Source: Rickettsiales bacterium (GTDB lineage: Bacteria; Pseudomonadota; Alphaproteobacteria; Methylaequorales; Methylaequoraceae). Taken from it: 42,674 bases of DNA. The DNA lies in NCBI GenBank assembly GCA_002691145.1, contig NZHE01000014.1:209830-252503 (forward strand), given 5' to 3'. Shown here one piece after another: positions 3,558 through 15,817 of this stretch (positions within the stretch are counted from its first letter, which is position 1; the number at the start of each line of letters is the position of its first letter). Both the position numbers and the translations under genes were made by a program. The notes below the pieces were generated by a model. The model had not been told where the DNA came from, made no database searches, and was given only the letters and a program-made list of their open reading frames with translations.

Positions 3558-5187
3558 AAAGAGCTTTTTTAAAGGGATGAATACTTATTCTATTGAGTGT
3601 TTTAAGAAAACTTTCACTTTTATCTATTCTATTTTTTAAATAAACATCAATTATTATTTTTATTGCTGGGATAATTTTATCTGAAGAAAATGAGGGGCCT
3701 ACAATTTTTCCTATTGATGAGTTTTCTTTTGCAGAGCCACCTAAAGTTATTTGATAATATTCTTCTCCATTCCTATCAAGTCCTAAAATTCCTATATTCC
3801 CGACATGATGATGTCCGCAAGCGTTAATACAACCAGAAATTTTAATTTTCATTTCTCCGATAAGATCTTGTATTTTGAAATCATCAAAAAATTTTGAAAT
3901 TTTTTGAGAAATTGGTATTGATCTAGCAGTTGCAAGTGCACAATAATCCATACCTGGACAACAAATTATATCTGTAATGCTTCCAATGTTTGAGGTCGCA
4001 AGATTACATTCTTTGAGTTTATCCCAAAGTTCGAAAAGTTTTTCATTTTTTACGTGAGGCAATATTAAGTTTTGCTCGTGCGAAACCCTTATCTCTCCAT
4101 ATGAATACTTTTCAGATAGTTTAGATAAATTTTTCATCTGTAGATATGTCATATCTCCAGGCGGTTTTCCCTTAGATTTAAGAGAAATATGTACAATTCT
4201 AAAGCCTCTAATTTTATGCTTAAGTGTATTTTTCTCATACCATTTTGAAAATTCAGAGTTATGCAAATTTTTTACTTTTGAATTAAGACTTTTTACCAAT
4301 TTAGGAAGTTTGAAAAATTTTTTTATCTCACCGATTTCATTTTTATTCAAAATAAAATAGTTTTTTTTTATCTTTTTCCATTCTCGATCTACAGCTTTTC
4401 TAAATTTTTCAATTCCCATTTCATTAACTAAAATTTTTATTCTTGCTTTATAAATATTATCTCTTCTTCCGAGTTCGTTATAAACTCTCAAAATTGATTC
4501 CAAGTATGAAAGAATATATTTTTTATCGATAAATTTATTTATTTTTTTGGCGATGACTGGGGTTCGTCCTTGACCACCTCCAACAAAAACTTCAAATCCA
4601 ATATTTTTATTATATTTAATTAACCTAAGTCCGATGTCATGTAATTCTATTGCTGCTCTATCATTTTTTGAGCCAGTAACAGCTATTTTAAATTTCCTAG
4701 GCAAAAAGGAAAATTCAGGATGAAACGTCGACCATTTTCTTATAATTTCACACCAGGGTCTTGGATCTTCAACTTCTTCTAAATTTATTCCTGCAAGATG
4801 ATCAGAGGAAATATTTCTTATACAATTTCCAGATGTTTGAATTGCATGCATTTCTACTTTCGAAAGCTCATCTAAGATTTTTGGTATGTCAATTAGTTTA
4901 GGCCAATTTATTTGAATATTTTGTCGCGTTGTAAAATGTCCATAACCTCTATCAAACTTTTTTGTTATATTGGCAAGACTTCGTAGTTGAAAACTTGATA
5001 ATTCTCCATAAGGAATGGCAATTCGAAGCATGTAGGCGTGAAGCTGAAGATAAACACCATTCATTAATCTTAAGGGTTTAAATTCTTCCTCTGAGAGTTT
5101 TCCATTCAATCTTCTGGATACTTGTTCTTTGAATTGTTCAACTCTATCAGCTACAATCTTTTTATCTGTTTCATTATATTTATACAT
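3541..5187 (-). CDS. cysI: Assimilatory sulfite reductase hemoprotein (nitrite/sulfite reductase family)
   Basis: A 548-residue siroheme and [4Fe-4S] reductase. The cluster/siroheme cysteines are visible as C410-x5-C416 (CPGMDYC) and C453-x3-C457 (CINACGHHHVGN). The substrate-side motif GYGHFTTRQNIQINWP lies near residue 81, and the two ferredoxin-like half-domains typical of the family are present. It would reduce sulfite to sulfide for cysteine synthesis. A nitrite reductase of the same family is the main alternative, but the DUF2849 and DUF934 neighbours and the nearby cysNC favour sulfite. It overlaps DUF2849 by 8 bases and DUF934 by 17 bases. No flavoprotein subunit is seen, so the electron donor is probably ferredoxin or a separately encoded protein. 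Confidence 0.93.
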   Translation of the reverse strand: MYKYNETDKKIVADRVEQFKEQVSRRLNGKLSEEEFKPLRLMNGVYLQLHAYMLRIAIPYGELSSFQLRSLANITKKFDRGYGHFTTRQNIQINWPKLIDIPKILDELSKVEMHAIQTSGNCIRNISSDHLAGINLEEVEDPRPWCEIIRKWSTFHPEFSFLPRKFKIAVTGSKNDRAAIELHDIGLRLIKYNKNIGFEVFVGGGQGRTPVIAKKINKFIDKKYILSYLESILRVYNELGRRDNIYKARIKILVNEMGIEKFRKAVDREWKKIKKNYFILNKNEIGEIKKFFKLPKLVKSLNSKVKNLHNSEFSKWYEKNTLKHKIRGFRIVHISLKSKGKPPGDMTYLQMKNLSKLSEKYSYGEIRVSHEQNLILPHVKNEKLFELWDKLKECNLATSNIGSITDIICCPGMDYCALATARSIPISQKISKFFDDFKIQDLIGEMKIKISGCINACGHHHVGNIGILGLDRNGEEYYQITLGGSAKENSSIGKIVGPSFSSDKIIPAIKIIIDVYLKNRIDKSESFLKTLNRISIHPFKKALYDNNW

Positions 5188-9450: not shown

Positions 9451-11574
9451 TTGAAAAAAAAATATACACATAAAGATTGGATTAACCTTGTTGAAAAAGA
9501 ACTCAAAGGTAAAAAAGAATCCACTCTCAATTGGGAGACGCCAGAAGGTATTAAAGTAAAACCACTATACACAGAAGATGATCTCTCAAATTTAGAGCAC
9601 TTAAACGGTTTTCCTGGATTTCCACCATACACCAGAGGTCCTAGAGCTACAATGTATTCAAATAGACCTTGGACAATAAGACAATACGCTGGATTTTCAA
9701 CAGCTGCAGAATCAAATGCTTTTTATAAAGAAGGTTTAAAGAATGGAGTAATGGGTTTGTCCGTTGCTTTTGATTTAGCAACACACAGAGGGTATGATTC
9801 TGACCATCCTCGGGTCGTAGCAGATGTTGGTAATGCTGGGGTAGCGATAGACTCTGTCGAAGACATGAACGCTCTATTTGATGGAATTCCACTTGATAAA
9901 ATGAGCGTCTCAATGACGATGAATGGTGCAGTAATCCCTGTTTTAGCTTGCTTCATTGCAGCTGGAGAACAACAAGGTTGCAAAAAAGAGGAACTTACAG
10001 GGACTATTCAAAATGATATTCTAAAAGAATTTATGGTCAGAAATACATTTATTTATCCTCCTAAAGCAAGTATGAGAATAGTTGCAGATATTATCGAATA
10101 TACGTCAAAACATATGCCAAAATTTAACTCTATTTCTATCAGTGGCTACCACATGCAAGAGGCTGGGGCGAATCAAGTACAGGAGCTAGCATATACACTG
10201 TGCGATGGACTAGAATATGTAAAGGTAGCTATTGAAAGAGGGCTTGAAATAGACGAGTTTGCTCCCAGATTATCTTTTTTTTGGTCAATCGGTATGAATT
10301 TTTTTATGGAGATTGCGAAAATGAGGGCAGCCAGATTTATGTGGTCTGAAATTATTTCAGAATTTGAACCAGTAAACTTAAAGAGTTTGGCTTTAAGAAC
10401 CCACTGCCAAACTTCAGGTGTTTCACTTACTGAGCAAGATGCTTACAATAATGTTGTTAGAACAACGGTTGAGGCGATGGCAGCTGTGCTAGGTGGAACG
10501 CAATCATTACATACAAATAGCTTTGATGAAGCGTTAGCTCTTCCAACCTCACAATCAGCAAGAATTGCAAGAAATACACAATTAATTTTAGCTGAAGAAA
10601 CTGGAATAACCAATGTTATAGACCCACTTGCTGGTTCTTTTTATATCGAAAGTCTGACGTCAGAAATAATAAAAGAGGCCAAAAAATTAATGAAAGAGGT
10701 TTCTGATGCGGGTGGAATGGTGAAAGCTATAGAATTGGGGATTCCAAAAATGAGAATTGAAGAAAGTTCAGCAAAAAAACAGGCAAGAATTGACTCAGGA
10801 GAAGAAACGATAGTTGGTGTTAATAAATATAAGCCAACAGAAAAGCAGGACATAAAAATATTGTCAATAGATAATGAGCAAACTAGAAAGGAACAAGTCA
10901 GGCAATTATCTCAAATTAAAAAAAATAGAGATTCAAAGAAAGTAGATGAAAGTCTTAAGAAAATTGAAAATGCGGCTAAAAATAATCATGGCAATCTTTT
11001 AGAACTTTCAGTAGAAGCGGCACATAATAAGTGCACTATTGGAGAAATAACCTTAGCTATGGAAAAAGTATTTGGCAGACATAAACTTTCATCAAAAACT
11101 ATTTCCGGTGTATATGCTAGCTCGAGTAAAAATAACATGAAGTTTGATGAGGTCAAAAAAGAAATCGAAATATTTTCTGAAAAAGAAGGAAGAAGACCCA
11201 GACTACTTGTTGTAAAAATGGGTCAAGATGGTCATGATAGAGGTTCAAAGCTTATAGCTACAGCCTTTGCAGATTTAGGTTTTGATGTAGATGTTGGTCC
11301 TTTATTCCAAACTCCAGAGGAGGCAGCAAAACAAGCGGTTGAAAATGATGTGCATATAATAGGAGTTTCTACATTAGCTGCTGGGCACAAAACTTTAGTG
11401 CCAATACTTATGGAAGAATTAAAAAAATACGATTCTGAATCTATTAAAGTTATTTGTGGAGGAGTAATCCCTCCTCAAGACTATAATTTTTTATATGATA
11501 TTGGGGTAACGAAAGTATTTGGACCGGGAACTAGTATTCCCAAAGCAGCTATTGAAGTTCTGAAATTAATATAA
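9451..11574 (+). CDS. scpA: Methylmalonyl-CoA mutase
   Basis: A 707-residue adenosylcobalamin-dependent mutase interconverting (R)-methylmalonyl-CoA and succinyl-CoA. The N-terminal barrel begins with the substrate-binding stretch [17 protein letters not shown] and continues with [15 protein letters not shown]. The C-terminal B12 domain (about residues 575-705) has the base-off motif GQDGHDRG with its cobalt-ligating His, then STLAAGHK and CGGVIPPQD. The start is a TTG, chosen because an AGGA ribosome-binding site at 9441-9444 lies six bases upstream and no later start keeps the conserved N-terminus. A two-codon ATG-ATT-TGA sits across this start. The meaB-like gene follows, which supports a propionyl-CoA catabolic role. 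Confidence 0.97.
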
Positions 11575-11598
11575 TATAGTTATCCATATTGGTTAATT

Positions 11599-12807
11599 AT
11601 GGATTTATTGAGCTTTTTAAAGTACAAAAAAATTACTGCAAAAAAATTCGCTAAATTAGTTGGTGTTTCTAATGTTACTATTTCTAGGTATATAAATGGT
11701 TCAAGAATACCCAATAAAAATATTTTAAAAAAAATTTTATTTCATACCGAAGAATTAGTTACAGCAAATGATTTTCATGACCTTAAGAAAAAAACAAAGT
11801 CTACAAATGAGTTACAAAAAGCAGACAAAAGATTTATAAAACAGTTTATAAATAAGATAAAATCTGGCTCTAGAAAATATTTAGCTAAATCAATAACATT
11901 GATAGAGTCAAACAAAATTAAAGATCAAAAATTAGCAGAGGAGTTAGTTTCTCAGATAAAAAAGAACCACAAAACAATAAGAATAGGAATTTCTGGAGTT
12001 CCAGGTGTTGGAAAGTCAACTTTTATTGAATCATTTGGTCTTTCACTGATAAACAAGGGATATAAAGTTGCTGTTCTAGCAGTCGATCCATCTTCAGTAA
12101 GAACAGGAGGCTCGATTTTAGGAGACAAAACTAGGATGGAAAAACTATCAGTTGAGAAAAAAGCTTTTATAAGACCTAGTGCAAACGCCGGACACCTTGG
12201 AGGAGTTACAAAGAAAACTAGAGAATCCATTCTATGTCTAGAATTAGCGGGTTACGAATTTATCTTCATTGAAACAATGGGTGTTGGTCAAGCAGAGACC
12301 GAAGTTTATAATATGGTTGATATTTTTCTTGTATTGTTATTACCCGCTGGAGGAGATGATCTCCAAGGAATAAAAAAAGGCATTATTGAATTGGCTGATC
12401 TCCTAGTAGTTAATAAAGCAGACGAGTCATTGTCTAAGATTGCAAATATCACTGTTAATGATTATCAAAATGCTTTATCAATAATTAGTTCATCCAGAAA
12501 TGGTTGGCAACCTAAAGCTTTAAAATGTTCTTCAAAAGAATCCACTGGTATCGAAAAGATATTTGAAGAAATAATGAGTTTTATAAAAATAATGCAAAAT
12601 AATGGAGATTTTTTTGAGACTAGAAAAAAACAAAATATAAATTGGCTTTGGGAAATGACAGAAAATAAAATAAATAATTATGTAAAATATAATATTAAAA
12701 ATAAGAAATATATAAACTATATTAAGGATGAACTTTTAAAAGAAAATATAGACGTTAATTATGCCTCAAATAAGATTTTAACCAATTATTTAAAAAATTT
12801 TAAATGA
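11599..12807 (+). CDS. meaB: HTH-MeaB fusion: methylmalonyl-CoA mutase-associated GTPase with N-terminal XRE-like domain
   Basis: A 402-residue protein. Residues from about 76 on form a full-length MeaB/ArgK-type G3E GTPase: P-loop GVPGVGKST at 133-141, the AVDPSSVRTGGSILGDKTRM region, the GHLGG motif, FIETMGVGQAE, and the base-specificity motif NKAD. MeaB loads and protects the B12 cofactor of methylmalonyl-CoA mutase, encoded just upstream. Residues 1-66 are an added helix-turn-helix of the XRE/Cro type (KKFAKLVGVSNVTISRYING, then a VTANDF ending as seen in small alphaproteobacterial HTH proteins). The frame is unbroken, and no in-frame ATG or other credible start lies between the domains, so the fusion looks real. 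DNA binding is inferred only. Confidence 0.93.
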   Translation: MDLLSFLKYKKITAKKFAKLVGVSNVTISRYINGSRIPNKNILKKILFHTEELVTANDFHDLKKKTKSTNELQKADKRFIKQFINKIKSGSRKYLAKSITLIESNKIKDQKLAEELVSQIKKNHKTIRIGISGVPGVGKSTFIESFGLSLINKGYKVAVLAVDPSSVRTGGSILGDKTRMEKLSVEKKAFIRPSANAGHLGGVTKKTRESILCLELAGYEFIFIETMGVGQAETEVYNMVDIFLVLLLPAGGDDLQGIKKGIIELADLLVVNKADESLSKIANITVNDYQNALSIISSSRNGWQPKALKCSSKESTGIEKIFEEIMSFIKIMQNNGDFFETRKKQNINWLWEMTENKINNYVKYNIKNKKYINYIKDELLKENIDVNYASNKILTNYLKNFK

Positions 12808-12856: not shown

Positions 12857-13138
12857 ATGTCAAAAAAATGCATGATAACAAATAAGAAGCCTTTATCTGG
12901 TCACAATGTTAGTAAAGCAATTAACAAGACAAAGAGAAAGTTTTTACCTAACCTTCAAATGGTTTCTTTTTTTTCTGAAACTCTTGGTAAGAAAATAAAA
13001 CTTAAAGTTACTGCAAGAGGTATTAAATCAGTTGAACATAATGGTGGAATAGATAACTATATCCTTTCATTAAAAAGTAAAAATCATACTTCTGAAACCA
13101 AAAATATAAAAAAATTTATCTTATCAAATAAACCCTAA
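12857..13138 (+). CDS. rpmB: 50S ribosomal protein L28
   Basis: A 93-residue L28 of the large ribosomal subunit. It has the typical start MSKKCMITNKKPLSGHNVS and the conserved KRKFLPNLQ and KLKVTARGIKSVEHNGG segments. It lacks the four-cysteine zinc version of the protein. A GGAG ribosome-binding site at 12847-12850 lies six bases upstream of the ATG. Its stop codon overlaps the cobT stop on the other strand by four bases. rpmB beside cobT/cobS is a familiar alphaproteobacterial arrangement. Confidence 0.97.
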   Translation: MSKKCMITNKKPLSGHNVSKAINKTKRKFLPNLQMVSFFSETLGKKIKLKVTARGIKSVEHNGGIDNYILSLKSKNHTSETKNIKKFILSNKP

Positions 13139-14856
13139 TTTTTATTAGTAAATAATTCTGTCAATTCCTCTAATAGAACTTGTGCAAGTTTGTCCACGTT
13201 CTCAATTGTGATTGCTCTATCATAATACTTTGAAACATCATGTCCAATTCCGATAGCTAACAGATCAATTTTTTTTGCTGATTGAATTTTTCCTACTACT
13301 TCGGTCAAGTGTTTTTCCAGAATATTTGAATTATTTGCAGAAAGAGTTGAATCATCAACTGGAGCCCCATCTGAAACCACAATAAGAATTTTCCTTTTTT
13401 CTTCTTTCAAAATTAATCTTTTATAAGCCCAAATGATTGCCTCTCCATCTATGTTTTCTTTGAGTAATCCATCTTTTAGCAATAGTCCGAGATTTTTATA
13501 ACAGTTTTTCCAATTTTTTTGCGAATCTTTATAAACAATATGTAATAGATCATTTAATCTTCCCGGCTTATCAATTTTACCATTTTCTTTCCAGTAAATT
13601 TTTGATTTACCTCCTTTCCACTCTCTAGTCGTAAATCCTAAAATTTCAATTTTAATACCACACTTTTCTAGAGTTTTTGTAATGATTTCTGCAGCATTAG
13701 CAGCAACTATTATCGGTCTCCCCCTCATTGAACCTGAATTATCAATTAGTAATGTTACCACAGTATTTTTTGACTTATTTCTTGTCTCTTTTTTAAAAGA
13801 TAAATTATTTGAGGGATTATAAATTACTCTTGTTAGTTTAGAAGAGTCAAGGATGCCCTCTTCTAAATCAAATTTCCAAAATCTTTCTTGATAGGAAATT
13901 AATTTTTTCTCGAGTTTTTTTGCTAGTTTATTTACAAGATAGTTATGCCGTGGAGATTCATTATCCAATTTTTTTCGTAATTCACCCAATTCCTCTGATT
14001 TTGCTAGTTTATTTGCATTTGATATAAGATCAAATTTTTTAGTAAAAGATTTATAATTTTCTGATACTTTTGTTGCATAATTTAAATCAGATTGATTATT
14101 ATTTATTGATGAACTTTCTTTTTCTTGGGAACTTTCAATAACTTTAGTTAATTTTATTTTGAATTTTTTTTTGTAATCTTGACTATATTTTTGCTGCTCA
14201 CTAACATTATCTTCTTGCTTATTGTTATTATTTTTCAATTTTTGATTTTCCTCATTCTCATCGTTTTTTTTGGTTTTATTCGATGGCAATAAACAAAATT
14301 TATTAGCATAAAATGAAAATTTTTGTTTATTAAAGAAAAATTTTTTTAGTAATAGTAATATTTTTTCTTCTTCATTACTAAAGCTAATTTTAATATTGTC
14401 ATTAGATATTTTAGAGTTATAAAAATATTCAACTAGAAAAATGTAGAAGTCTTTTTCCTCCTCGCTGCCTATTTGAAAGTTACTTTTATGATTTTTTAAA
14501 AAATCTGTGATATTCTTTAATGAGCCCGGAAAAGAATATAAACCAATAACTGTGGAGTATGAATAATGAATTAATTCGTAAATTCTTTTTTGTTCGTTTT
14601 TTTTTGGTAAATATTTTTTGTGATACCTGCTTGATATGAATCGTCTCTTGTAACAGGCTAAGTCTATTTTTCCTCTGACCGCATCCTCCAGTATATCTTT
14701 AAAGAAATCGATGTATATTAAGTTTTCACTGATTTTATACTCTTCAGAATCTGTATCTACAAATTTAACTTTTAAATCCTTATTTTTAGAAAGTGATTTA
14801 GCTGCAGCAGTTGAAACATCAGATAGTAAGTTTTTCTTGTTATCAAGATTATTCAT
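13135..14856 (-). CDS. cobT: Cobaltochelatase subunit CobT (von Willebrand A domain)
   Basis: A 573-residue CobT, the large non-catalytic subunit of the aerobic CobNST cobaltochelatase that inserts cobalt into hydrogenobyrinate a,c-diamide for vitamin B12. The C-terminal third is a von Willebrand A domain with the metal site LLIDNSGSM near residue 373 and a later VSDGAPVDDSTL. The middle (about residues 200-260) is a low-complexity Lys/Glu/Asn/Gln region typical of the acidic linker of CobT. The start overlaps the end of cobS by eight bases, so the two are coupled. CobN is not in the window. CobS and CobT form an AAA+/VWA chaperone pair that remodels CobN. It ends in a four-base convergent overlap with rpmB. 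Confidence 0.93.
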   Translation of the reverse strand: MNNLDNKKNLLSDVSTAAAKSLSKNKDLKVKFVDTDSEEYKISENLIYIDFFKDILEDAVRGKIDLACYKRRFISSRYHKKYLPKKNEQKRIYELIHYSYSTVIGLYSFPGSLKNITDFLKNHKSNFQIGSEEEKDFYIFLVEYFYNSKISNDNIKISFSNEEEKILLLLKKFFFNKQKFSFYANKFCLLPSNKTKKNDENEENQKLKNNNNKQEDNVSEQQKYSQDYKKKFKIKLTKVIESSQEKESSSINNNQSDLNYATKVSENYKSFTKKFDLISNANKLAKSEELGELRKKLDNESPRHNYLVNKLAKKLEKKLISYQERFWKFDLEEGILDSSKLTRVIYNPSNNLSFKKETRNKSKNTVVTLLIDNSGSMRGRPIIVAANAAEIITKTLEKCGIKIEILGFTTREWKGGKSKIYWKENGKIDKPGRLNDLLHIVYKDSQKNWKNCYKNLGLLLKDGLLKENIDGEAIIWAYKRLILKEEKRKILIVVSDGAPVDDSTLSANNSNILEKHLTEVVGKIQSAKKIDLLAIGIGHDVSKYYDRAITIENVDKLAQVLLEELTELFTNKN

Positions 14857-15817
14857 ATTGTAAAATTTCTATTCCAAAACATCTTTGATAATATTCATTT
14901 ATGACTAACTTGTCATTTTCTTCACATTTATTTAAAAATGTAAGAATAAATGCTCTATGAATATCATCAAAAAGTTCTGCATTTTCAGCCCATGTAATTG
15001 AAGTCCTTGGAGACATTAATAACGATAAGTCTGAGTTTTTAAAACCATCTCTAGTCAAGTTTGCCATTTTGACCATTTGTGCAATAGTACTTTTGTTGTT
15101 TTTTGAAAATTTTTTAACTCTTTTTCTAATTATCATTTGTTCAATTTCTGGGGTTAAATAATTTAAGCTTGAGACAATATTCCATCTGTCAAGCTGTCCT
15201 TGGTTGATTTGTTGGGTTCCGTGGTAGATACCCGAATTGTCTCCTAGACCTACAGTATTACAAGTACCAAAGATTCTTGATAATTTATGTGGATTAATAA
15301 TTTTATTTTGATCTAATAAAGTAAGTTTACCAGATGATTCTAGAATTCTTTGTATAACGAACATTATATCAGGTCTTCCTGCATCATATTCATCGAAAAC
15401 AAGAATAATAGGATTTTGAATACTCCATGGAAGAACCCCCTCTTTAAAGGATGTGACTTGCTTGTCATTTTTTAGAATTATTGTATCTTTTCCCAAAAGG
15501 TCTATTCGACTGATATGTCCATCTAAATTTATTCTTACACACGGCCAATTAAGTCTCGCCGCGACTTGTTCAATATGTGTCGACTTACCAGTACCATGTA
15601 AACCCTGGATTAATACTTTTTTATTATTTATTAAACCTATTAAAATTGATAACGTGGTCTGCTTATCAAAAACATAATTTGGATCAATTTCAGGTACTAG
15701 TGATGTTTTCTTTGAAAAAAAAGGAACATCAAAATCTTTATCAATATTAAATAATTTTTTTGAAGATTTTGTAGAATCTAATTTTAAATCGGTTAAGTCT
15801 TCTTTTTCAATAAACAT
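14849..15817 (-). CDS. cobS: Cobaltochelatase AAA+ ATPase subunit CobS
   Basis: A 322-residue AAA+ ATPase of the aerobic cobaltochelatase. Walker A reads GLHGTGKST near residue 93 and Walker B LVFDEYDAGRPD near residue 139. Further on are the sensor-type GTCNTVGLGDNSG and GQLDRW arginine-finger region, all typical of CobS. It works with CobT to drive CobN in cobalt insertion. It is preceded by the J-domain gene with a six-base gap and overlaps cobT by eight bases, so the three form a leftward operon. B12 made this way would supply the methylmalonyl-CoA mutase encoded 4 kb away. Confidence 0.95.
   Translation of the reverse strand: MFIEKEDLTDLKLDSTKSSKKLFNIDKDFDVPFFSKKTSLVPEIDPNYVFDKQTTLSILIGLINNKKVLIQGLHGTGKSTHIEQVAARLNWPCVRINLDGHISRIDLLGKDTIILKNDKQVTSFKEGVLPWSIQNPIILVFDEYDAGRPDIMFVIQRILESSGKLTLLDQNKIINPHKLSRIFGTCNTVGLGDNSGIYHGTQQINQGQLDRWNIVSSLNYLTPEIEQMIIRKRVKKFSKNNKSTIAQMVKMANLTRDGFKNSDLSLLMSPRTSITWAENAELFDDIHRAFILTFLNKCEENDKLVINEYYQRCFGIEILQYE

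Follow-up and report, generated by a model that had tools for sequence, protein, structure and literature searches.

An XRE-type helix-turn-helix domain fused to the MeaB GTPase: a putative autogenous regulator with a conserved palindrome before its own start codon

The HTH-meaB gene and its genomic context

The window, that is, the whole stretch of 42,674 nucleotides analysed, carries a methylmalonyl-CoA mutase gene followed directly by a gene in which a complete MeaB GTPase is joined to an N-terminal XRE-type helix-turn-helix (HTH) domain. The features of this region are as follows.

9451..11574, + strand: methylmalonyl-CoA mutase gene, scpA type, presumed client, directly upstream of the fusion (Pfam; listed start TTG)
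11552..11580, + strand: possible promoter TTGAAG-N17-TATAGT, overlapping the palindrome (weak evidence)
11580..11596, no strand: palindrome TTATCC-atatt-GGTTAA, predicted operator, 2 nt before the ATG
11599..12807, + strand: HTH-MeaB fusion gene, ATG start, 402 amino acids, one continuous frame
11599..11778, + strand: XRE/Cro-type HTH domain, residues 1-60 (Pfam HTH_3, AlphaFold helices, conservation)
11671-11697, + strand: recognition helix of the HTH, about residues 25-33
11764..11862, + strand: linking helix, sequence-variable, residues 56-88 (AlphaFold, entropy)
11869..12804, + strand: complete MeaB GTPase part including the C-terminal helices, residues 91-402

The GTPase part belongs to the MeaB family, and the N-terminal part is an XRE-type HTH. 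Pfam placed a MeaB domain at residues 95-364 (E=1e-97) and HTH_3 at residues 10-46 of the full-length protein (E=2e-8); residues 1-80 searched alone matched HTH_3 as well (E=3e-9), and the HTH_3 scores of 34.5 to 37.2 bits lay above the gathering cut-off of 23 for the XRE/Cro profile. The protein also exceeded both NCBIfam cut-offs for MeaB equivalogs (PRK09435, 415.9 against 329; TIGR00750, 309.6 against 240.75). The GTPase motifs were all present, namely the P-loop GVPGVGKST (residues 133-141), NKAD (272-275) and switch III (D253/Q256/K259), and residues K139, S140, D253, Q256, K259, K273 and D275 were invariant in an alignment of 25 sequences. The predicted role of this part is to hydrolyse GTP and to load AdoCbl into the mutase.

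A preliminary description of this DNA had proposed such a fusion, likening its N-terminal part to small alphaproteobacterial XRE proteins and pointing out that no in-frame ATG separates the two parts. Stand-alone XRE relatives of residues 1-60 were indeed found outside the family of the source organism, and the frame of the window contains zero ATG, GTG or TTG codons from residue 4 to residue 101, so that an HTH-less MeaB made from a standard start within this interval is excluded in the window. An ATG near residue 80 is present in several relatives of the fusion.

The structure prediction suggested in the same description gave a five-helix HTH fold ahead of MeaB. In the AlphaFold model the helices span residues 3-10, 14-21, 25-33 and 40-49, followed by a long helix (56-88) that runs into MeaB. 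The HTH block had a pLDDT of 84 to 93 in the full-length model, a monomer built on a shallow alignment, and the N-terminal 80 residues modelled alone reached a mean of 92.5, with 95 to 98 over residues 1-60. In Foldseek, the N-terminal part resembled repressors and antitoxins of the XRE type (P22 c2, HigA and others) with a probability of 1.0 and a TM score of about 0.6, at weak E-values (best, 9e-3), and MeaB and MMAA structures were the closest PDB folds of the whole model. As modelled, the N-terminal domain has a lambda-repressor-like helical fold.

The same domain order was found throughout the related genomes that carry the gene. The fusion aligned from residue 1 to 3 in 24 of the 32 genomes of the family, as one continuous frame in each of these 24 genomes, which span 10 genera; complete copies were 49 to 58% identical. 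This continuity rules out a frameshift or assembly artefact, and a two-gene arrangement, also considered and rejected on the same 24 frames, was not seen. Neither the lack of an HTH, nor separate genes, nor a translation start after residue 75, named beforehand as observations that would speak against the fusion, was encountered. Summed dN/dS values were 0.090 for the HTH, 0.165 for the linker, 0.042 for the GTPase and 0.141 for the C-terminus, and entropy was 0.82 in the recognition helix versus 1.96 in the linker (residues 61-90). Judged by these substitution patterns, the HTH is under purifying selection.

An scpA-type mutase was present in 25 family genomes, and in 24 of them the fusion lies directly behind it; in the 25th (G003) the contig stops inside the mutase. 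The 7 family genomes without this mutase, several of which are incomplete, were also without the fusion. The mutase of the window scored 1224.4 bits with NCBIfam PRK09426 (cut-off, 876), and the linkage to an AdoCbl-dependent acyl-CoA mutase that characterizes MeaB was found at the fusion loci, the mutase gene being directly upstream. The neighbouring genes keep one order in the window and in the six fusion loci set against it: they include pyrD-like, HAD hydrolase, mutase, HTH-meaB and rpmB-like genes and, on the opposite strand, CobT- and CobS-like ones (NCBIfam supplied the names HAD, mutase, CobT and CobS; pyrD-like and rpmB-like were named by eye). The CobT-/CobS-like genes of the window (13135-15817, - strand), opposite to the mutase genes, both scored below the curated equivalog cut-offs.

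Other members of these protein families were also observed. In the two loci compared, glyQ/glyS-like genes (named by eye) adjoin a further MeaB, about 300 residues long and lacking an HTH. The genome of the window itself encodes a second MeaB-like GTPase without an HTH (L165:9204-10118, - strand), below the MeaB equivalog cut-offs, and a second acyl-CoA mutase of about 650 residues (L199:2368-4311, - strand), below the methylmalonyl-CoA mutase equivalog cut-off.

The matches listed for 385 sampled genomes of the class included no HTH-MeaB from outside the family. Within the best 80 loci of the contig search, alignment from residue 1 was restricted to two contigs of the MAG 'Rickettsiales bacterium isolate SP101', and a few loci aligned from residues 19 to 49. 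The MeaBs listed from outside the family, as well as the solved MeaB structures, matched only from about residue 80 onward.

The palindrome between mutase and fusion

The distance from the mutase stop codon to the fusion ATG is 22 to 27 nt in the 24 genomes, and in all 24 a palindrome fills most of this gap. Its family consensus is TTAACC-RNNNY-GGTTAA (that is, TTAACC-N5-GGTTAA), 17 bp long and situated 1 to 8 nt before the ATG; the left arm in the window (TTATCC) deviates from it by one mismatch. The exact palindrome was present in 19 of the 32 family genomes, as one copy per genome, and all 19 copies were at the meaB gap. A specific, conserved site at its own gene, as expected of an autogenous regulator, was thus found. 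At least 8 of the 12 arm positions were invariant (2.00 bits), while three central positions showed 0.5 to 0.7 bits and the flanks mostly 0.4 to 1.1, as calculated from 16 genomes selected to reduce the weight of close relatives. Because the 24 sites have a common ancestry, they do not represent 24 independent events.

The exact palindrome was not found upstream of the mutase gene. Sites with one mismatch amounted to a few more per genome, in numbers no higher than those of a control pattern, and 14 of the 15 inspected for context sit inside open frames of at least 100 codons. A wider regulon was accordingly rejected. Between positions 5000 and 17000, no RNA family or cobalamin riboswitch was matched in Rfam up to E=0.5.

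An internal promoter near the 3' end of scpA is possible. The best-matching sigma-70-like sequence ahead of the fusion has its hexamers 17 nt apart, the second of them ending 1 to 2 nt inside the palindrome in 21 of the 24 genomes. These matches averaged 9.0 of 12 positions versus 7.4 in mononucleotide shuffles; the first hexamer falls in conserved mutase codons, and a promoter scan of the window gave 2 sites versus 1.8 expected, no excess over chance.

Similar sites before HTH relatives in other families

Outside the family, the HTH has XRE proteins as its nearest relatives, of which some are stand-alone (small proteins of other alphaproteobacteria) and others are joined to further domains. 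A matrix built from the family sites was scanned over the 80 nt preceding 26 non-family genes for HTH relatives, and the scores were compared with those of dinucleotide shuffles. A site at p<0.05 was observed before 7 of the 26 genes, with a combined Fisher p of 4.5e-6 (1e-5 in a repeat run), the set of 26 being not fully independent and including the first examples, which had been spotted by eye before the test. Seventeen of the 26 had no significant site (p>0.09). The controls rendered values of 0.73 inside genes, 0.39 at 220 to 300 nt upstream and 0.12 with the reversed matrix. Examples of the sites are TTACCCgaaatGGGTAA (L204), GTATCCaaattGGATAC (L206) and TTATCCacagtGGCTAA (L205), three clear ones, and TTTACCaaatcGGTAAT (L203). 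That the operator travels with the HTH domain is, on these comparisons, the favoured reading.

Several of these XRE domains front enzymes. At L203 (G220) the same domain is joined to an enzyme of the aspartate/ornithine carbamoyltransferase family (387 amino acids), and TTTACCaaatcGGTAAT lies 26 nt before the start. It precedes glutamine-synthetase-like enzymes at L208, L212, L216, L220, L221, L222 and L255 (assigned by Pfam for L212 and judged by eye from the sequence for the other six), with operator-like sites before two of them (L208, p=0.002; L212, p=0.07), and RibBA-type riboflavin enzymes of 431 to 437 amino acids at L252 (Pfam), L253 and L254. This occurrence suggests that the HTH is a recurrent self-regulation module; a like self-regulation of the other enzyme fusions is partly supported.

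Two further frames were observed. At L211 (G350) the XRE domain is in frame with a 2-oxoglutarate dehydrogenase E1, though translation could also begin separately at an internal ATG, and at L215 (G255) it is in frame with a nitrate-reductase-delta-like protein.

Tentatively, a 60-residue XRE domain and a palindrome before the gene may form a portable module, joined more than once, in different families of the alphaproteobacteria, to the front of metabolic proteins (MeaB, RibBA, aspartate carbamoyltransferase, glutamine-synthetase-like and nitrate-reductase-delta-like), each of which would regulate itself, with the state of client or substrate read via dimer geometry. We regard this generalization as possible rather than probable.

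Proposed self-control of meaB and relation to known systems

We consider it probable that HTH-MeaB is an autogenous regulator, most likely a repressor, of its own meaB gene, acting via the palindrome before the start codon. Binding of the HTH to the palindrome is strongly supported by the comparative data, and the effect on meaB is likely repression. As a dimer, MeaB would bring two HTH domains to the 17-bp palindrome immediately ahead of its ATG; once bound, it would lower meaB transcription either by masking a possible internal promoter near the 3' end of scpA or by stopping RNA polymerase that arrives from scpA. Such a feedback would set the amount of the chaperone. The preliminary description had suggested that the fused protein could control its own operon: putative DNA binding and self-regulation gain strong indirect support from the conserved palindrome before the fusion ATG, whereas the extension to scpA probably does not apply, since the palindrome follows the mutase gene and the likely target is meaB itself. 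For the same reason, no direct effect on the mutase is expected. Binding of the client could in turn change operator binding, and the switch III residues, which are tied to the client-binding mechanism, are conserved in the fusion; that mutase binding or the GTP state alters DNA binding, and with it the suggested sensing of mutase or B12 state, is nevertheless speculative.

The same palindrome could act as an RNA hairpin by the start codon that tunes meaB translation, the HTH having another role or target. In the genomes folded, the stretch does fold as RNA (-5 to -14 kcal/mol), with a stem that reaches the start codon in some, and G008 and G016 carry matching changes in the two arms (ATAACC/GGTTAT). 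The arm sequence, however, is nearly invariant, beyond what pairing alone needs; central positions 7 and 11 keep a purine and a pyrimidine yet are often unpaired; the site stands anywhere between 1 and 8 nt from the ATG; and similar sites precede HTH relatives of other families at varied distances. Because sequence rather than pairing alone is conserved in the arms, and in view of the matrix test on the non-family relatives, a DNA operator is favoured and the hairpin appears unlikely.

Two other readings keep the palindrome as a DNA site. The link between HTH and palindrome is itself a prediction from sequence, which would leave room for a separate regulator on the palindrome, with the HTH of the fusion as a mere protein-interaction or structural extension; but the exact palindrome occurs only in fusion-bearing genomes and only beside the fusion, and HTH relatives of other families carry similar sites before their own genes, which makes a separate regulator very unlikely. 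Alternatively, HTH-MeaB might activate meaB transcription, or its target might be the entire operon, mutase included. There are activators among the XRE-type proteins, for instance controllers of restriction-modification systems, and a C.BclI-type fold was among the PDB matches of the HTH. However, the site is located at or downstream of any promoter able to serve meaB, 1 to 8 nt before the ATG, a position typical of repression, and its exact form is absent upstream of the mutase, so that activation or whole-operon action is very unlikely. Repression of meaB by its own product is the reading retained.

No description of an HTH-MeaB fusion was found in the open-access literature, most subscription journals being outside the search. 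With G-protein metallochaperone and DNA-binding domain physically joined in one protein, and just one site predicted for it, autogenous feedback and a possible read-out of mutase loading become directly testable. If a unit of domain and palindrome also governs the other enzyme fusions, it would constitute a simple and general route to self-regulated enzymes.

Compared with MeaB and MMAA (TIGR00750, PRK09435; PDB 2QM8, 8DPB and 8GJU), HTH-MeaB shares the complete GTPase, the gene position directly behind methylmalonyl-CoA mutase and the closest PDB fold, and differs in its 75 to 80 or so extra N-terminal residues with the HTH. Short XRE/Cro-type repressors (HTH_3; structures of P22 c2, HigA and C.BclI) have in common with it the fold and a dyad site near their own start, but they are regulators by themselves, whereas here the HTH sits on an enzyme accessory protein. 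IcmF, the fused isobutyryl-CoA mutase/GTPase, is also a natural fusion with a MeaB-type GTPase; there the chaperone is joined to the mutase, while here it is joined to a DNA-binding domain and the mutase is separate. PutA, BirA and NadR are trigger enzymes with autogenous control (PMC8249747). By analogy, HTH-MeaB would act in the manner of a trigger enzyme: like PutA, which represses its own locus as its single target, it is a metabolic protein with a DNA-binding domain. It differs from these three in having a GTPase metallochaperone as the fusion partner and a predicted site located between the genes of client and chaperone.
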